Below, piece after piece: positions 1,457 to 27,096 of a stretch of 39,125 nucleotides of DNA. This stretch comes from a virus. Below the pieces are notes generated by a model. That model ran no database searches. It was not told the origin of the DNA and worked only from the letters and a program-made list of their open reading frames with translations. The DNA is taken from positions 1-39,125 of the IMG/VR virus record IMGVR_UViG_3300006119_000024; one strand, written 5' to 3'. Numbering within the stretch: the stretch's first letter is position 1; each line of letters starts with the position of its first letter. The position numbers and the translations under genes were made by a program.

Positions 1457-2866
1457 ATGCAACTAAGACCCTACCAAACTGACCTCATCGCCAAAGCCCG
1501 CCAATCCCTACGCGACCACCAGTCCGTCCTGATGGTAGCCCCTACCGGAGCCGGGAAAACGGCTTTGACGGTTCACATGATGGCAACAGCGGCCAGTCGC
1601 GGCATCAGTTCCATATTTTGTGTTCACCGGGATACGTTACTGGCACAGACCAGTCGGGCATTGTGGGAGCAGAAGGTTGAGCATGGCGTTATTGCGGCAG
1701 GTCGCGGCATGAGTCCGCGCATTCCGGTGCAGGTTGCATCGGTTCAGACTTTAGTGCGCCGATTGGATCGCGTATCGGAACCCGGATTGATTGTCATTGA
1801 TGAGGCGCATCGGGCGGCGGCTGAAACGTATCAGAAGATCATACGGGCTTATCCCAAGTCGCGTGTGGTTGGCCTGACTGCAACGCCACAGCGAACTGAT
1901 GGCAAAGGGCTATCCGATATCTTTCAGGGAATGGTCGAAGGCCCTACGGTTGCCAGCCTGATCCGTGACGGATATCTGTGTCCGTATGTCATTTTCGGAG
2001 TCAGTAAACCCGTGGAAACGGCCAGTTTGAAGAAGCGCATGGGGGACTATGTGGCTGAAGAAATTGAAGCCATCATGGATAAACCCTCCATTACCGGGGA
2101 TGCAGTGGCCCACTACAAACGTCACGCCAATGGCAAACGATGCGTGGTGTTTTGCGCTACGCTGAATCATGCCAGACACGTTTGTGAAGCCTACAACCAA
2201 GCGGGTGTGACCGCTGAACATATTGACGGTAACACGTCATCCGCAGAACGTCAGGCGATCCTTGCGCGAGTGAAATCAGGAGAAACGCTCGTCTTGACCA
2301 ATGTGGAATTGGTGATTGAAGGCGTAGACGTTCCCGCCATCGAAGCAGTTCAATGGCTCAGGCCAACGGCATCCCTCATTATCTGGTGTCAAGGGAATGG
2401 GCGTGGATTCCGTCAGGCGCATGGAAAGGATCATCTGATTATTCTGGATCACGTCCAAAACTATGCGCGGCATGGTCTACCAGACGATGAGCGTCAATGG
2501 TCGCTTGAGGGTGATCCGAATCGGGGCAAGCGAAAAAAAGCTGACCCGGATGAAATGAGAATCAAACAATGTGAGAAATGCTATGCCATCTTCAATCCCG
2601 GTCCAACCGAGTGTCCGTCATGCGGCGAACCCATCCAAGGAAAACCAAGAATCATTGAAGTCAATGAAGGATATCTTGAACAGTTGGATATTGAGTCCAT
2701 CCGTCGAACACAACGAAAGGAGCAAGGAGGCGCAAGAACGCTTAGAGACTTGGTGGAACTCGGCAAACGCCGGGGATTGAAAGACCCTGCGGGATGGGCG
2801 GCGCACGTTTATGCCGCAAGGACCGGGGCGAAACCTGATTTTAGTGCGGCTAGGGGGTATTTGTGA
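1457..2866 (+). CDS. SF2 DEAD/DEAH-box helicase
   Basis: This 469-residue protein is a superfamily 2 helicase of the SSL2/type III restriction-like group common in phages. Visible motifs in order are the Q-like LRPYQ at residues 3-7, Walker A APTGAGKT (28-35), Walker B IDEAH (about 114-118), motif III GLTATPQR (about 140), motif V TNVELVIEGVDVP, and motif VI QGNGRGFRQ (about 312-321). A C-terminal zinc-binding pair CEKC and CPSC follows (about 373-389). It should use ATP to unwind or move on duplex DNA in replication or recombination. The stop codon overlaps the GTG start of the next gene (GTGA at 2863-2866), and that gene in turn overlaps the nuclease gene, so the three are probably co-translated. 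Motif identification is firm; the exact DNA substrate is not known. Confidence 0.92.
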   Translation: MQLRPYQTDLIAKARQSLRDHQSVLMVAPTGAGKTALTVHMMATAASRGISSIFCVHRDTLLAQTSRALWEQKVEHGVIAAGRGMSPRIPVQVASVQTLVRRLDRVSEPGLIVIDEAHRAAAETYQKIIRAYPKSRVVGLTATPQRTDGKGLSDIFQGMVEGPTVASLIRDGYLCPYVIFGVSKPVETASLKKRMGDYVAEEIEAIMDKPSITGDAVAHYKRHANGKRCVVFCATLNHARHVCEAYNQAGVTAEHIDGNTSSAERQAILARVKSGETLVLTNVELVIEGVDVPAIEAVQWLRPTASLIIWCQGNGRGFRQAHGKDHLIILDHVQNYARHGLPDDERQWSLEGDPNRGKRKKADPDEMRIKQCEKCYAIFNPGPTECPSCGEPIQGKPRIIEVNEGYLEQLDIESIRRTQRKEQGGARTLRDLVELGKRRGLKDPAGWAAHVYAARTGAKPDFSAARGYL

Positions 2867-3642
2867 ACATTCTAAGTTTAGGCGCTGGCGTTCAATCCAG
2901 TACGCTTGCTTTGATGGCGGCCAAGGGCGAAATAGGCCCAATGCCTGATGCCGCGATTTTTGCGGATACGGGTTGGGAACCGCGCAAGGTCATGGAATAT
3001 CTGGATTGGCTTGAAACCCAGTTGCCGTTTCCTGTTTATCGAGTAATGCACAAAGACGGTCTCTTGAATGCGATTAAAGGCGATGGACGGTTTGCTGCGG
3101 TTCCATTTTTCATGTCAGGGGGGGGCATGGGGCAACGCCAATGCACTGCTGAATACAAACTCACGCCGATCAGGAAAAAAACTCGTGAATTGCTTGGATA
3201 TGAACCACGAAAACGCATACCAGAAGGATCGGTGACAATGTGGATTGGTATCAGCCTTGATGAATCTATTCGCATGAAACCGTCACAGGACAAATGGATT
3301 AAAAATCGGTGGCCTTTGATCGAACTCAACATGACGCGATGGCATTGTTTGGAGTGGATGGATAAGAACGGCTATCCGATGCCGCCAAAGTCATCCTGCC
3401 TTGGTTGCCCCTATCACTCAAACAAGCAGTGGGTTGAGATTAAACGAGATTCGCCTGAAGAATGGTTGGAAACAATAGAGATTGATCGGTTGATTAGAAA
3501 CAGGGCATCCGAAATGAAGGATCAGCAATTTATGCACCGATCATGCAAACCGTTGGATCAAGTCGATTTCAGCATCATCGAAAAACAACCGGATATGTGG
3601 GAGGGGTTTGGCAACGAATGCGAAGGGATGTGCGGGGTATGA
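2863..3642 (+). CDS. PAPS-reductase-like (ATP pyrophosphatase fold) protein
   Basis: The 259-residue product starts at GTG inside the helicase stop. Its N terminus MNILSLGAGVQSSTLALMAA carries the PP-loop like G-x-G-V-Q-S-S-T signature of phosphoadenosine phosphosulfate reductase-like proteins, and FADTGWEP follows as in that family. A CLGCPYHSNKQW motif lies near residue 180, giving a CxxC pair. Family members adenylate or activate a substrate with ATP; phage and DndC-related members are linked to nucleic-acid or sulfur chemistry rather than sulfate assimilation. A sulfate-assimilation role is unlikely because no partner genes are present. Tight coupling to a helicase and a VRR-NUC nuclease suggests a job in DNA metabolism or defence avoidance (inference). 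The family call is confident; the reaction is unknown. Confidence 0.82.
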   Translation: MNILSLGAGVQSSTLALMAAKGEIGPMPDAAIFADTGWEPRKVMEYLDWLETQLPFPVYRVMHKDGLLNAIKGDGRFAAVPFFMSGGGMGQRQCTAEYKLTPIRKKTRELLGYEPRKRIPEGSVTMWIGISLDESIRMKPSQDKWIKNRWPLIELNMTRWHCLEWMDKNGYPMPPKSSCLGCPYHSNKQWVEIKRDSPEEWLETIEIDRLIRNRASEMKDQQFMHRSCKPLDQVDFSIIEKQPDMWEGFGNECEGMCGV

Positions 3643-3980
3643 ACGAACACGACCTACAAAACCGCATCCTCCTAGCCCTCTCCGCATCAGGTGCAACCGT
3701 CTGGCGACAAAACACGGGCCTTGCGTGGGTGGGTGAGCCGGTTCAACTGGCGAATGGCGATGTGCTTCTAAAAAATCCGCGTCGATTGCACGTTGGATTG
3801 TGCAAGGGATCAAGCGATATTATCGGATTGCATGAAGGTCGGTTCATTGCTTGTGAGGTCAAAGCCAAAGGCGGCAGAGTCACTCGCGAACAGGAAAACT
3901 TCATAGCGCAAGTCAATGCCAACGGGGGTTCTGCCGGGATTGCTTGGAGCGTTGACGATGCGTTGAGGTTGATAGGATAA
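3639..3980 (+). CDS. VRR-NUC domain nuclease
   Basis: I choose the ATG at 3639, which overlaps the previous stop codon (ATGA), giving 113 residues. The protein shows the VRR-NUC core of the PD-(D/E)XK fold: GSSDII with Asp60, then ACEVKAKGG with Glu73 and Lys75, then a helix containing Gln85 (TREQENF). Stand-alone phage VRR-NUC proteins are structure-selective nucleases, often acting on branched DNA and frequently encoded next to SF2 helicases, exactly as here. The start fits the family length of about 100 residues; an upstream in-frame extension to 3543 would overlap the previous gene heavily and has no supporting motif. This is the last gene before a strong terminator. Confidence 0.88.
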   Translation: MNEHDLQNRILLALSASGATVWRQNTGLAWVGEPVQLANGDVLLKNPRRLHVGLCKGSSDIIGLHEGRFIACEVKAKGGRVTREQENFIAQVNANGGSAGIAWSVDDALRLIG

Positions 3981-3993
3981 TAGGACTGTCGGC

Positions 3994-4085
3994 GTGGTAC
4001 CCGATAGAAAGCCCTGAATTGAAGATGCGTCCCGGTCGTTTTGGATTGGGAGTACCACCGCGTCTTCACTTGAGGGCTTTTTTTT
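3994..4085 (+). terminator. Long hairpin terminator with competing upstream helix
   Basis: Positions 4008-4029 pair with 4059-4080 over 22 positions with only two mismatches and one wobble, followed by eight T residues (4078-4085): a strong intrinsic terminator for the operon ending with the VRR-NUC gene. The helix continues with TCCC (4030-4033) pairing GGGA (4048-4051). This leaves GTACCAC (4052-4058) as a bulge, which is perfectly complementary to GTGGTAC at 3994-4000 upstream. The second pairing is either a pseudoknot or, more likely given the short 7-nt linker, an alternative fold. Terminator role is well supported; a regulatory switch is inference. Confidence 0.75.
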
Positions 4086-4098
4086 GCCCGGAGGTTTT

Positions 4099-4398
4099 AT
4101 GACGATTTGCCACGGATTGACTATGGAGCAAGGCTTACCAGAAGAAATATGTTGCTTTCAGTGCAACCAAACAATGACATTTGGAACAAGTGGGATTGCT
4201 TATTTTGGTTATTCATCTGCTATCTATGTTTGCGGAAAATGTTCACCCGGATTTGCTGCTGGAATACTTCATGATGCTAGTCGATTAGACTCATTTCTTC
4301 ACATTAACGAAAGACACGCAAACTACATTTATGACGCAAACATCCTTGCTCAAGAAAATCGACAAATTACAAAAACATACGGAGGGCTTGATGATTGA
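4099..4398 (+). CDS. Hypothetical Cys-rich protein, 99 aa
   Basis: The start is the ATG at 4099, six bases behind a clear GGAGG site; the upstream TTG belongs to the terminator region. The protein starts MTICHGLTMEQGLPEEICCF and holds two cysteine pairs, CCFQCN near residue 18-21 and CGKC near residue 45-48, which look like a small zinc ribbon. The C-terminal half is helical and mixed in charge (INERHANYIYDANILAQEN). Such small zinc-ribbon proteins are common in phages and may bind nucleic acid or protein, but I recognise no family. It begins a new transcription unit after the terminator and its end overlaps the next gene by 8 bp. Confidence 0.7.
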   Translation: MTICHGLTMEQGLPEEICCFQCNQTMTFGTSGIAYFGYSSAIYVCGKCSPGFAAGILHDASRLDSFLHINERHANYIYDANILAQENRQITKTYGGLDD

Positions 4399-4537: not shown

Positions 4538-4550
4538 TGTAAACTTCCCA

Positions 4551-4613
4551 ATGCACCTAGGGTAGCTCCCGAAAAGCCGTCACCGTCATGGTCTGGTGCA
4601 TCTTTTTTGACGG
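4551..4613 (+). promoter_or_regulatory. Structured leader before primase gene
   Basis: ATGCACC (4551-4557) pairs perfectly with GGTGCAT (4595-4601), closing a 37-nt loop; T-rich DNA (4603-4608) follows. Inside the loop GGG (4560-4562) can pair with CCC (4568-4570), and the hexamer CCGTCA occurs twice in tandem (4577-4582 and 4583-4588). Either copy is perfectly complementary to TGACGG at 4608-4613, directly before the start codon at 4617, allowing an H-type pseudoknot over the ribosome binding region. The loop closely resembles the one at 19382-19418. It could be a weak terminator, a translational switch, or both. Pairings are seen; function is inferred. Confidence 0.55.
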
Positions 4614-4616
4614 ACA

Positions 4617-6644
4617 ATGGCAGACGGAACCATGACAGATATCACGCATTTGTTCCCTGAGATTGTCAGGGAATTCTTAGGCAACGAACCCACAGAAACA
4701 TTCAAAGGCGGCAGAGAACTGCGGTTTGGTTCGCGCCAATCTTTGTCCATTGATCTGGACAAGGGTCGATGGTTTGACTTTGAACGTCAGATCGGTGGAA
4801 ACATCCTTGAATTCATCATGGATCAGGCCGGGATGGATGCCACATCCAAGGCAATGAAATGGCTAGAAGATCAAGGAATGATTCCAAAGACCGAATTCAT
4901 ACCCAAGCCAAAACAGAAGCAAAATGGAACGCTTCAATCGACGTACAACTACGTTGATGAGAACGGAGAATTGCAGTATCAAGTCCTCCGCTATGCCAAC
5001 CCGCGAACCTTTAAGCAGAGGGCCTCTGACGGGACATGGAGCATCAAGCATCTGACACCGATCCCTTATCGACTGCCAGAGATGCTTGCCCAACAAAACA
5101 CCATTTTGATTGTTGAGGGCGAAAAGGATGTAGACAATCTTTATGAGTTAGGACTTACCGCAACATGCAACAACGGTGGCGCTGGTAACTTCAAGGATGA
5201 ATTAGTTCCGTGGTTCACCAATAGAACCGTCATCATCATCCCAGATAATGATGAGGCAGGGCAAAAACACGCGCAAGATGTAGCCAAAAAACTGCATCCG
5301 GTTGTGACATCTATTCGCATCATCAATTTGCCGGGACTTGGCCCCAAGGGCGATGTATCCGACTGGATACAAATGGGGGGCACAAGAACCCAACTCATTG
5401 ACATTTGTAAGGCAGCGCCCTTTTGGGAGCCACCGCCGGATGTTGAAATAAATTCCCCTCATGTCACCAATTACTTTGAGCCATTGCCTCATTGCAATGA
5501 CAAGGGAAAGCCACTGGTTCACATCGACAACTTGCGCGAAATCCTTTACAGGTTGCAAGTCAACATCCGCTACAACGTCATCACAAAAGAGGATGAAATC
5601 CTGATTCCCGGTCAATCATTTACGATGGACAACAAGGCCAATGCCACGCTGGCATGGATTGAATCCGAATGTAGCCGTTTCGGATTTTCAACATCCAAGG
5701 TTTCAGAATTCATTGTCTACCTAGCCGATCAGAACCTATACAACCCAGTGGCAACATGGATTGAGTCCAAGCCGTGGGACGGGGTGTCTCGGTTGGAAGA
5801 CCTTTACAACACCATCTATTGCGTCAAGAACTCTGACAACGACCTTAAAGAAGTTTTGATGCGTCGATGGCTTATATCTGCCATTGCCGCAGCATTCAGC
5901 CCTGTTGGGGTAGCCGCTCCCGGCATCTTGGTGCTTCAGGGAGATCAATATCTAGGAAAAACAAAATGGTTCAAGTCTTTGGTCCCGGAAGAAATGGACT
6001 TGGTAAAAGATGGATTTATCCTTGATCCATCAAATAAAGATTCAGTCGAACAAGCATGTTCATTCTGGCTAGTGGAATTGGGAGAGCTAGATGCGACATT
6101 TAAAAAATCAGATATCGCCGCACTAAAAGCATTTATCACCAATAAATCAGATGTATTCAGAAAGTCATATGCCAGAAAGAAATCACAATTTGCACGGCGC
6201 ACTGTATTTTTTGGTTCAGTGAATAATAAGAACTATTTAAACGATCCTACAGGCAATAGACGTTTTTGGACGATTGAATGTGCAGACATAAAGCATAGTC
6301 ACGGTATTGATATGCAACAGCTATGGGCTGAAGTTTTGCATCATTGGCGAAATGGAGAATCATATTTTTTGACGCCAGAAGAAATGAATAAACTAAATGA
6401 ACACAACGAAGATTTTACAGTCATGCACCCCATAGCTGAAAAAATTGCCACGAAGTTGGCATGGGATGATCCTGCATCACTATGGACTTGGAGAACTGTT
6501 ACGAGCGTTTTGGAGAGCGTTGGAATTGATAAGCCGAATCCATCTGATGCAACATCAGCGGGAATTTACATACGGCGCATGAATGGAGGGAAAGGCAAGA
6601 GATCGAATGGGGTTGGCTATGTTCTGGTCCCTAACAACAAGTAA
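4617..6644 (+). CDS. TOPRIM primase / VapE-type helicase
   Basis: This 675-residue protein combines primase and ATPase parts. The N-terminal 80 residues (WFDFERQIGGN near residue 50) resemble the DNA-binding region before TOPRIM domains. The TOPRIM motifs are ILIVEGEKD (about 162-170) and IPDNDEAG (about 206-213), with DVSDWI after. The C-terminal half matches virulence-associated E type P-loop proteins: LQGDQYLGKTKW (about 440-451), WLVELGELDATFKKSD, and TGNRRFWTIE near 545. It should lay primers and unwind at the phage replication fork. The start could be 4617 or the in-frame ATG at 4632; neither has a strong ribosome site, which fits control by the folded leader. The repeats just downstream (6648-6722) may be its DNA target (inference). 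Confidence 0.9.
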   Translation: MADGTMTDITHLFPEIVREFLGNEPTETFKGGRELRFGSRQSLSIDLDKGRWFDFERQIGGNILEFIMDQAGMDATSKAMKWLEDQGMIPKTEFIPKPKQKQNGTLQSTYNYVDENGELQYQVLRYANPRTFKQRASDGTWSIKHLTPIPYRLPEMLAQQNTILIVEGEKDVDNLYELGLTATCNNGGAGNFKDELVPWFTNRTVIIIPDNDEAGQKHAQDVAKKLHPVVTSIRIINLPGLGPKGDVSDWIQMGGTRTQLIDICKAAPFWEPPPDVEINSPHVTNYFEPLPHCNDKGKPLVHIDNLREILYRLQVNIRYNVITKEDEILIPGQSFTMDNKANATLAWIESECSRFGFSTSKVSEFIVYLADQNLYNPVATWIESKPWDGVSRLEDLYNTIYCVKNSDNDLKEVLMRRWLISAIAAAFSPVGVAAPGILVLQGDQYLGKTKWFKSLVPEEMDLVKDGFILDPSNKDSVEQACSFWLVELGELDATFKKSDIAALKAFITNKSDVFRKSYARKKSQFARRTVFFGSVNNKNYLNDPTGNRRFWTIECADIKHSHGIDMQQLWAEVLHHWRNGESYFLTPEEMNKLNEHNEDFTVMHPIAEKIATKLAWDDPASLWTWRTVTSVLESVGIDKPNPSDATSAGIYIRRMNGGKGKRSNGVGYVLVPNNK

Positions 6645-23022: not shown

Positions 23023-23648
23023 CCCCCGTTAATTCAACAGTCAATACGGCTTTTTCCCTAGCGTATGAATGGAGTCCTATTCTGTTCACGGGTGGACTGT
23101 TTTCATGGTCCCCGATGGGAATTCCGATCATTGCCATCACGCAATCCATTTCCGTTGCCGGGACCGTAACGTCATCCATCCTTGATGGCGGCAACATTCA
23201 GCCTTTTGCCCAGCCGCTTTTCACATGGCGTCCTATGCCGGGATCAACGCTATGGGAATCTGAAATTGCTGAGTATCCGTTTTATACCAATCAAATAGCG
23301 GCTAATGCTCAGGTTCAAAGGCCCCTTAGGGTTTCTATGCTGGGTCACGCCCCTGCCGGTGGCGGTACGCCGTGGTCATTGAAGCTGGCAACTATTTTTG
23401 CCCTTCAAGGATTGATTCAGGCGCATATCAATGCTGGCGGCACGTTTACCGTCATGACTCCAAGCTATGTCTACAGCAACTGCCTTCTGACGAATTTTGT
23501 TGATGTTTCATCGGGCGAAACCAATCAACCGCAGGTTTCTTGGCAGATGGATTTCGTTCAACCATTGCTGACGTTGCCGCAATCTAACGGCACATTGAAT
23601 ACGTTCTATCAAACTGTCGCTAATGGCGGCCAGTCATTGCTGGGTTAA
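23019..23648 (+). CDS. Baseplate-associated protein, 209 aa
   Basis: An unrecognised 209-residue baseplate protein that overlaps the hub gene by 4 bp (ATGA). It starts MTPVNSTVNTAFSLAYEWSP and holds the Gly/Pro-rich segment LRVSMLGHAPAGGGTPWSLK and a C-terminal FVDVSSGETNQPQVSWQMDF, which remind me of proteins that connect tape measure and hub (DUF6046-like by general look). It is beta-rich with Trp residues and no membrane segment. Role inferred from position. Confidence 0.62.
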   Translation: MTPVNSTVNTAFSLAYEWSPILFTGGLFSWSPMGIPIIAITQSISVAGTVTSSILDGGNIQPFAQPLFTWRPMPGSTLWESEIAEYPFYTNQIAANAQVQRPLRVSMLGHAPAGGGTPWSLKLATIFALQGLIQAHINAGGTFTVMTPSYVYSNCLLTNFVDVSSGETNQPQVSWQMDFVQPLLTLPQSNGTLNTFYQTVANGGQSLLG

Positions 23649-23650
23649 TC

Positions 23651-23992
23651 ATGACGACATTTAACGTGCCAGAATCGTTTAAAACCGCCATCAATCTTCA
23701 GGTCACACTGGATGGGGCGGGTTATACGGCAACGATTGCATGGAATGTATTTGGCCAGCGGAATTACGTCACTATCTTGGATCAATTCGGCAATCGCGTT
23801 GTGACGATCCCGCTGATCGGAAGTCCCCCATCAGCCGATTACACGTACACCAACACCGATTTCGTACAAACGACCAACAATAAGACCATTACACTTGCAC
23901 TAAATCGACCGATTAACATCATTGCGGGTTATTTTCAGACTTCCGCGATGTATTACTATCCGCAAGATCAAACGTTAGTGGTCACGCCATGA
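23651..23992 (+). CDS. Baseplate plug-like protein, 113 aa
   Basis: The 113-residue protein contains the block YTATIAWNVFGQRNYVTILD followed by QFGNRVVTIPLIGSPP, and ends INIIAGYFQTSAMYYYPQDQ. This pattern (an immunoglobulin-like beta sandwich with NVFGQR.YV..D..GN) recurs in contractile-tail phages between hub and spike genes, where it is thought to belong to the baseplate. In some relatives an additional FCCH-like insertion follows PLIGSP; here that region is short. Coupled by 4 bp overlap to the spike gene. The function is inferred. Confidence 0.62.
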   Translation: MTTFNVPESFKTAINLQVTLDGAGYTATIAWNVFGQRNYVTILDQFGNRVVTIPLIGSPPSADYTYTNTDFVQTTNNKTITLALNRPINIIAGYFQTSAMYYYPQDQTLVVTP

Positions 23993-24621
23993 CAAATTTT
24001 GCTGGAAAACTTCCATACGTACAAAACCTTTCGCAGTCTGTTGACTATCGCAATGAAGCGAATCAACAGCAGATGGGATGGGAGCTTCCTTGCACTGTCA
24101 TTGCAATCAGTGACGATGGTTTGTTCGTGACGGTCAACTTTGAAATGGTGCAAAACGCCTTTCAGTTCCCTCAGATCACGATTCCTGTATTCATGAGCGA
24201 ATACGTGAGGCTTCCTATCCAAATTGGAACCAGAGGCTACACGACTTTTGTAGACGTTCCTACCGAACAGATTACAGCGGAAAAATCGACACCCGCCACA
24301 TTCAAGAATTTTGGCAACCTTAACAAGGTTCTGGTGTTTCAGCCCATTACCAATAAAGGATGGCCAAGCAACCCGGATATCAATGTCGTATGGATGTATG
24401 GTCCTAATGGCGTAACCATTCAGGATGAGGCCGAAAATTCTGTGGTCACGATAACGCCTACAGGAATCACGCTCAAAAGCGGAACGTCTTTCATCTCTAT
24501 CGCCAAAAATGGAGCGATTGACATTGAGGGAACATCAGTCAAGATCATGGGCAAGGATTTCCTGACGCATCATCATTCGGGTGTTTCTACCGGATCAAGC
24601 AATACGGGTAACGTGGTATGA
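23989..24621 (+). CDS. Baseplate spike protein (gpV-like)
   Basis: The 210-residue product has an N-terminal OB-like domain (GWELPCTVIAISDDGLFVTV), a middle region (FQPITNKGWPSNPDINVVWM), and a C-terminal beta-helix with repeated VVTITPTGITLKSGTSFISI strands. Near the end FLTHHHSGVSTGSS gives a His cluster like the metal-binding apex of Phi92 gp138 and P2 gpV spikes. It should form the trimeric needle that pierces the outer membrane, consistent with a Gram-negative host. The position after the hub is standard. The His cluster is seen; iron binding is inferred from the family. Confidence 0.85.
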   Translation: MTNFAGKLPYVQNLSQSVDYRNEANQQQMGWELPCTVIAISDDGLFVTVNFEMVQNAFQFPQITIPVFMSEYVRLPIQIGTRGYTTFVDVPTEQITAEKSTPATFKNFGNLNKVLVFQPITNKGWPSNPDINVVWMYGPNGVTIQDEAENSVVTITPTGITLKSGTSFISIAKNGAIDIEGTSVKIMGKDFLTHHHSGVSTGSSNTGNVV

Positions 24622-24986
24622 GATGTTGGGGCCGGACCTATCACACTGATGGCACTTACACATGGAACGAAGTCACAACGGATGCCAATGGCTATAACGA
24701 TGCCGTGTACGTCACCGCTTTGGCTCAGGTGCTTCAGCTTAATCAGAATGAATCACCTTTCTGGGCAAACTATGGCATTCCGGCCATTCAAAGCGTTACC
24801 ACGCAAGTGTTCCCAGACCTTGCCGTTTATTTCACTCAGCAACAATATGCGCGATACTTTGCATCGCTTAAAATCAGCAAAATCAATGCGCTGAATCAGT
24901 ATCAAGTGCCGACCCCTGTGTATCAGGTGAACATCATCACCCAGCAGGGTTCCATCATTAACTTCAACGTGCCGATACCGACATGA
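24618..24986 (+). CDS. Baseplate wedge protein (gp25/W position)
   Basis: The 122-residue protein starts MRCWGRTYHTDGTYTWNEVT and holds ESPFWANYGIPAIQSVTTQV, which is typical of small wedge proteins that precede baseplate J proteins. The overlaps on both sides are 4 bp, so it is translated with spike and J genes. By size and place it corresponds to T4 gp25 or P2 gpW. The classical EPR-type wedge motif is not evident, so the family assignment is by context. Confidence 0.65.
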   Translation: MRCWGRTYHTDGTYTWNEVTTDANGYNDAVYVTALAQVLQLNQNESPFWANYGIPAIQSVTTQVFPDLAVYFTQQQYARYFASLKISKINALNQYQVPTPVYQVNIITQQGSIINFNVPIPT

Positions 24987-26404: not shown

Positions 26405-27096
26405 CCTTGCCCACCGCTCCCGTAACGGCAACCAAGACGATCCCTTCGTATCTGTATTTTCAATACATAGACGATCCCGATCTTCCCGCCCTTATAGCGT
26501 CTTACAACCAACAAACGCAAAACTACGTTACTTGGTTCGCGGCTATCAATCTTCCGGTCTATACGGGCCTTACAGGGGCGTTGCTAGACTGGATTGGGCA
26601 GGGAATCTATGGACTTCCACGGCCTAGCCTTTCATCTAGTACTATCTCAGGAATGATTGGTCAGATCGGGTCCGTGAAGCATCATGGGGCCATCGGTCCC
26701 AGTGGTCCGACACCCAATATCGTCAGTGCAATCAGCACAACGCAGATTTATCAAACTCAGAACAACTACGATACGCCGGATGATATTTATAAGCGCATTC
26801 TGACATGGTGGTTTTTTAAGGGTGACGGAAAGAACTTTTCGATTCCTTGGTTAAAGCGTCGAATTGCCCGATTCCTGTACGGCACCAATGGTACAAACAT
26901 TTGTCCTGCTTGGAATCCCGGCATCAGCGTGACGTTCAATGATGCAACTTCACCACTCCCCACTTGCACGATTACGCTCACGGCATCTAATTTAACGGGC
27001 GTAAGCTCTAACCTTCTGACTTATCTGCAAGTTTGTATCGCTGATGGCGTATTATTGCTCCCATTCCAGTTCCAATACACGGTGACTATCGCATGA
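26401..27096 (+). CDS. Tail protein I / baseplate wedge
   Basis: The 231-residue product follows the J gene with a 4 bp overlap and precedes the first fibre gene, the usual place of P2 gpI or Mu gp48-like proteins. It starts MTLPTAPVTATKTIPSYLYF and carries YTGLTGALLDWIGQGIYGLP and TPDDIYKRILTWWFFKGDGK, helical parts, then a C-terminal beta region with LQVCIADGVLLLPFQFQYTV. Such proteins bind J on one side and the fibre N terminus on the other. Assignment is by context and pattern. Confidence 0.75.
   Translation: MTLPTAPVTATKTIPSYLYFQYIDDPDLPALIASYNQQTQNYVTWFAAINLPVYTGLTGALLDWIGQGIYGLPRPSLSSSTISGMIGQIGSVKHHGAIGPSGPTPNIVSAISTTQIYQTQNNYDTPDDIYKRILTWWFFKGDGKNFSIPWLKRRIARFLYGTNGTNICPAWNPGISVTFNDATSPLPTCTITLTASNLTGVSSNLLTYLQVCIADGVLLLPFQFQYTVTIA

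Follow-up and report, generated by a model that had tools for sequence, protein, structure and literature searches.

The stretch of viral DNA analysed here (the window: 39,125 nucleotides, positions 1 to 39,125 of IMG/VR record IMGVR_UViG_3300006119_000024) poses a simple question: why would a transcription terminator carry, as a bulge in its hairpin, a seven-base sequence whose exact complement lies a few bases upstream? A preliminary description had pointed to a long hairpin at 4008-4080, to its bulge GTACCAC (4052-4058) and to the complement GTGGTAC (3994-4000), and sequence and folding agree that all three are exactly present. It had also pictured GTGGTAC as a free upstream strand, tied to the hairpin by a 7-nt linker and competing with it near the top of the stem, so that read-through towards the primase could be controlled as in attenuators. 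Here we report that the element belongs to an uncatalogued family of ~100-nt phage RNAs, pseudoknotted and lying right before a start codon, and that it probably acts in cis as a transcription attenuator for the next gene, which in the window is the open reading frame (ORF) at 4099-4398 and not the primase.

A loop-bulge kiss within a terminator

Folding places the parts in the order P1, P2 carrying P3, a loop-bulge kiss (PK1) and then eight T, with P1 directly adjoining the terminator hairpin. The strand once thought free is the loop of a hairpin of its own, P1, and the supposed linker is the 3′ arm of that hairpin. Since the strand is a conserved hairpin loop, a competing free strand is ruled out; the pairing is instead a kiss between the bulge and the loop of a separate hairpin, and belongs to a fold that is conserved. 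If it competes with anything, this would be the base of the stem or, where members have a linker joining P1 to P2, the entire P2 helix. The features of the locus are these:

3952-3981, + strand: promoter-like site TTGACG-18-GATAAT in the 3′-terminal part of the VRR-NUC gene, with 10 of 12 consensus matches
3986-4007, + strand: P1 hairpin, CTGTCGG (3986-3992) with CCGATAG (4001-4007), loop C-GTGGTAC; from the fold, with one-sided changes, conserved in alignment A2
3994-4000, + strand: 5′ strand of PK1, GTGGTAC, the P1 loop; pairs with 4052-4058, with compensatory changes in loci L012 and L003
4008-4080, + strand: terminator hairpin, P2 (4008-4029 with 4059-4080) bearing P3 (4030-4051); from the fold, P2 and P3 covarying in A2
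4025-4102, + strand: possible leader ORF of 25 codons, status uncertain, read from the sequence; its TGA overlaps the ATG at 4099
4052-4058, + strand: 3′ strand of PK1, GTACCAC, the 7-nt bulge between P3 and P2; from folding and comparison
4078-4085, + strand: T-run of the intrinsic terminator, eight T; from the sequence and a terminator scan
4090-4094, + strand: Shine-Dalgarno sequence GGAGG for the downstream gene; from the sequence, the layout being shared by relatives
4099-4398, + strand: downstream gene, a small CxxC/CxxC protein of 99 amino acids starting 13 nt past the T-run, probably the controlled gene

The 111-nt fold has an energy of -51.4 kcal/mol (z -5.3), which none of 200 shuffles equalled, and the G+C-rich hairpin followed by a T-run makes the element at 3986-4085 a predicted intrinsic terminator. 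The promoter-like site, of a kind expected 0.1 times in shuffles, would begin the RNA at or beside P1. Both GTGGTAC and GTACCAC occur once on the + strand of the 39-kb window; shuffling the 48 nt upstream produced GTGGTAC in 198 of 20,000 trials, so that the match alone has a chance of about 1%. A chance match is argued against most strongly by the compensatory changes in L012 and L003 and by the same architecture in dozens of phages.

These changes are seen among the relatives of the window RNA. The RNA of L013 is identical to it, while PK1 reads GTGAGAC/GTCTCAC in L012 and L081 and GTGGAAC/GTTCCAC in L003. All seven pairs are kept throughout, pair 4 as G-C or A-U and pair 5 as U-A, G-C or A-U, so the covariation between 3994-4000 and 4052-4058 that attenuation had led the preliminary description to look for is present, with other letters in two relatives. 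P2 and P3 covary as well: in the window-type alignment A2, 98.9% of cells are paired, with double changes at seven pairs, compared with 36-50% in slid controls. By BLAST, the window element gave only short matches at chance level in phage and plasmid records, and the RNA is absent from the primase-related Achromobacter phage Mano and Escherichia phage Bas97.

The RNAs at L012 (3490-3600) and L013 (3235-3345) are clearly different alleles, only 66-68% identical, set between the flanks of close phages that are mostly 86-100% identical. Selection for self-recognition was considered as a reason why their kissing loops differ, an effect inseparable here from exchange of RNA alleles by recombination.

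A family of pseudoknotted phage RNAs

To describe the family by structure, we required P1, a 7-nt loop and, 13-28 nt before a T-run, the complement of that loop unpaired within the terminator hairpin. A first, loose geometric scan was discarded, its control giving as many matches as the real sequence. The tightened descriptor gave ~19 distinct matches in 0.92 Mb and none in reversed sequence, and a scan of a third set, of viral contigs, gave ~40 rows vs 4 in the control. Together, descriptor and pattern scans yielded dozens of further members in phages of Proteobacteria and, we infer, of Verrucomicrobia and Bacteroidetes. In the commonest type P1 is GGC-CGURNNAA-GCC and the bulge is ..GCC-AA-UUNNYAC-C.

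Because the descriptor itself demands complementarity, PK1 was tested separately, with a DNA pattern that is unselected for pairing and leaves three positions free, the chance of full complementarity being 1/32. Among matches before a T-run, 39 of 41 were complementary at all three free positions, against 6 of 52 without a T-run; a pattern built for the predicted A-U variant gave one match before a T-run (L303), again complementary. The covariation score was 0.494 vs 0.157 when shuffled (alignment A1, whose 20 members were chosen with PK1 intact). Conserved bases that merely reflect a coding sequence are ruled out, since the leader reading frame shifts between members. In a probable Bacteroidetes-phage type (L090-L104), the complement lies in the terminal loop of the terminator hairpin, which makes the pairing a loop-loop kiss, and at least five different loop pairs are found there. 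The loops of the family are natural, mutually distinct kissing pairs.

Members that bear a linker between P1 and P2 have a second pseudoknot, PK2, formed by the linker and the P3 loop; examples are TGCGAAG/CTTCGCA in L006 and CAGACAC/GTGTCTG in L134. Over 20 representatives PK2 scores 14.45, whereas 1000 permutations average 9.4 and reach at most 11.1. The window type and the L148 group have neither linker nor PK2. By a rough steric estimate, which assumes 2.8 Å per pair and about 6 Å per nucleotide, the spacer from PK2 to P2 is too short for a complete P2 in about two thirds of linker-type members and long enough for PK2 and full P2 together in about one third.

No Rfam 15 family reached its gathering cut-off over the element in the window and 24 loci (most of the members shown), and a known Rfam RNA is thereby ruled out; searches by E-value gave sub-threshold matches only (NsiR1 at 15 of 39 bits, and miRNA models). 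Nor did we find a description of the family in the open-access literature. Phages with largely uncharted gene control gain in it a widespread RNA family that covariation supports and Rfam lacks. A model search of 388 sampled genomes of the phylum of L257 gave one match, so the RNA looks mostly phage-borne.

Some loci depart from the common layout. The contig of L134 holds two copies of the RNA 886 bp apart (G001 23647-23753 and 24533-24638), and L258 has a weak second copy in tandem. L148, L151, L165 and L167 have one kissing pair in common and a promoter-like TTGACA site; their RNA, strongly conserved in sequence and without a gene close behind, is possibly a free RNA.

Genes behind the RNA

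In divergent genomes the RNA immediately precedes the start of a co-oriented coding sequence, as a cis-regulatory leader does. Of 27 non-redundant members, 25 end at a distance of 0-20 nt from the start codon that follows. When all members are counted, 90% have, no more than 20 nt past the T-run, an ATG that opens an ORF of at least 60 codons, a layout shown by 13% of the 379 other terminators from these loci (p = 2e-30). So short a gap leaves little room for a promoter, and the next gene therefore probably depends on read-through.

In the window that gene is ORF 4099-4398; the primase named in the preliminary description lies farther on, at 4617, and has a terminator-bearing RNA of its own, of the int-alpA family. 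The PAPS label earlier given to ORF 2863-3642 found no Pfam match at E 0.001. ORF 4099-4398 is homologous to the CxxC gene behind the L006 RNA (28% identity, E 3e-11), which ties both subtypes to the same slot behind VRR-NUC. Elsewhere the genes change while the RNA stays, as comparison of loci shows, and even the window and L013, with their common RNA, do not have the gene behind it in common. The downstream genes include HNH, GIY-YIG, T5orf172, Bro-N, DUF1376 and HTH/DnaD-like (replication-type HTH) genes and one for a deoxyribosyltransferase-like protein; no ligand or gene theme was found among these protein families, and diversity of this kind suggests no ligand.

Marinomonas phage P12026 and Idiomarinaceae phage 1N2-2 have the gene for an HNH endonuclease starting 10-14 nt behind the RNA. 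In P12026 the RNA occupies 26407-26514 and the HNH gene follows after 14 nt. In 1N2-2 (L251, 8001-8612), RNA and HNH gene stand on the opposite strand inside a structural operon, placed as a mobile cassette would sit.

Four members lie in bacterial genomes, as prophage, and have no T-run, at least one of them beside a tape-measure-like gene. PK1 is kept with P2 and P3 in L255, L257 and L258, and PK2 also in L255 and L257; the Shine-Dalgarno sequence of L255 lies in the base of the helix. A change of output from termination to translation, if that is what these layouts reflect, is what a cis regulator would show.

Attenuation and its alternatives

Computation supports the family itself, the conservation of PK1 and PK2, the terminator and the position before start codons, and attenuation fits these results well on account of the covariation and of the start codon a few nucleotides past the T-run; where the preliminary description erred was in the geometry of the pairing and in the gene concerned. 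From the layout we infer how promoter use, read-through and regulation as such might be joined. RNA polymerase would start at or near P1, which would be first to fold; P3 and the bulge would emerge next, and the bulge would pair with the P1 loop to form PK1, the linker additionally pairing with the P3 loop as PK2 in linker-type members. If the full P2 helix closed before the polymerase left the T-run, transcription would stop, and if the pseudoknotted fold held P2 open, the polymerase would read through into the gene. Where the spacer is too short, as estimated for about two thirds of the linker-type members, only one of the two, pseudoknotted fold or complete terminator, would form at a time. 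The steric argument is weaker for the window type, which has neither linker nor PK2: P2 is longer than PK1 and P1 together, and only its lowest pairs need open. PK1 there contributes about -9 kcal/mol, compared with a cost of about 15 for unpairing the seven lowest pairs of P2, so the terminator wins at equilibrium unless a ligand, a protein or kinetics helps. A metabolite, a phage or host protein, and translation of a leader ORF are candidate triggers; through the predicted pairs the role of the RNA is directly testable.

The same observations may be read in other ways. The terminated ~100-nt RNA might itself be the product, a trans-acting small RNA or structural RNA with its own promoter, the gene behind it receiving leaky read-through as with RNA antitoxins upstream of a toxin gene. 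Promoter-like sites 6-17 nt before P1 in many relatives, which would put the start at P1, speak for such a product, as do the elaborate fold, the L148 group without a near gene, and the AbiF system of C. difficile, with its promoter, non-coding RNA, terminator and gene in that order (PMC12373285). We nevertheless consider it unlikely, since the proteins encoded behind the RNA are too unrelated for a single RNA-protein pair (a dedicated RNA-protein pair, as with type III or AbiF RNA antitoxins, is ruled out on the same ground) and start codons spaced as tightly as 0-20 nt are unexpected for a free small RNA. A constitutive terminator or insulator, with PK1 and PK2 only stabilising the 3′ end of the RNA or speeding the folding of the hairpin and a fixed partial read-through free of switching, would suit a terminator helix far more stable than PK1 and the many members that sit between co-directional genes, 5-48 nt past the upstream stop. 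Yet ordinary terminators need neither a conserved kissing pair nor a double pseudoknot to function, PK1 persists in prophage members that have lost the T-run, and PK2 and full P2 sterically conflict in many members, all of which makes plain termination quite improbable.

Control by a leader peptide would have a ribosome on a short internal ORF block the terminator and move on to the next gene where its stop codon overlaps the start codon. The frame from ATG 4025 in the window ends in just such an overlap, and in a probable Verrucomicrobia-phage group an AUG in or beside the PK2 strand opens a frame of ~28-36 codons that stops at or just past the next start codon or overlaps it. Such an ORF is conspicuous in that one clade but not general: none is present in L008, L092, L121, L134 or L303, the enrichment of ATG ORFs that run through the T-run is only mild (16/32 vs 68/238), and the frame across the conserved CAAUU varies among members, whose peptides are not conserved. 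Leader-peptide control of the family is accordingly very unlikely.

The cis-acting attenuator that we favour resembles several known systems. Like terminating riboswitches and attenuators, the family has a leader position, pseudoknots and a terminator as output, with the Shine-Dalgarno sequence in a helix in one prophage member; unlike them, its aptamer and terminator share one helix and its genes have no theme. Antisense attenuators of the pT181 type likewise combine loop kissing with a terminator ahead of a gene, whereas here both partner loops belong to the same RNA. The closest precedent found is the RCd22-AbiF leader of a C. difficile prophage (RF03085 motif), in which a promoter, a structured ~100-nt non-coding RNA and an intrinsic terminator precede a gene reached by read-through; the order of parts and the phage-borne nature are common to both (PMC12373285). 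However, the AbiF RNA acts on one toxin-like protein and the new family precedes unrelated genes, and its double pseudoknot is not a feature described for RCd22-AbiF in the portion of that report used here (PMC12373285). RF03085 matched no member tested.

A bolder proposal, possible but doubtful, is that these RNAs are phage sensors of a new class, switches with a double pseudoknot that stand before various early or accessory genes and respond to one shared cue of infection. The genes would be homing-type endonucleases, antirepressors and replication genes, and the cue may be, for example, a metabolite, a phage protein or the RNA's own copy number, read through loop kissing in trans. With the RNA preceding unrelated genes, its trigger would reveal a cue that many phages use for timing accessory and replication genes.

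The int-alpA RNA in the same window (RF02996) is likewise a terminator-bearing phage RNA, placed in the window and in relatives a few nucleotides ahead of a start codon, and differs from the 3986-4085 element in fold and in sequence; its model matches only 4550-4613 in the window (43 bits), not 3986-4085. Rfam types it as a small RNA, but its placement suggests a leader, and with both RNAs so placed, terminator-leaders before phage genes may be more general. The VapE-type primase ORF begins 8 nt past the T-run of this int-alpA RNA, and in L003, L006, L012 and L013 too the RNA lies 1-31 nt before the primase start.
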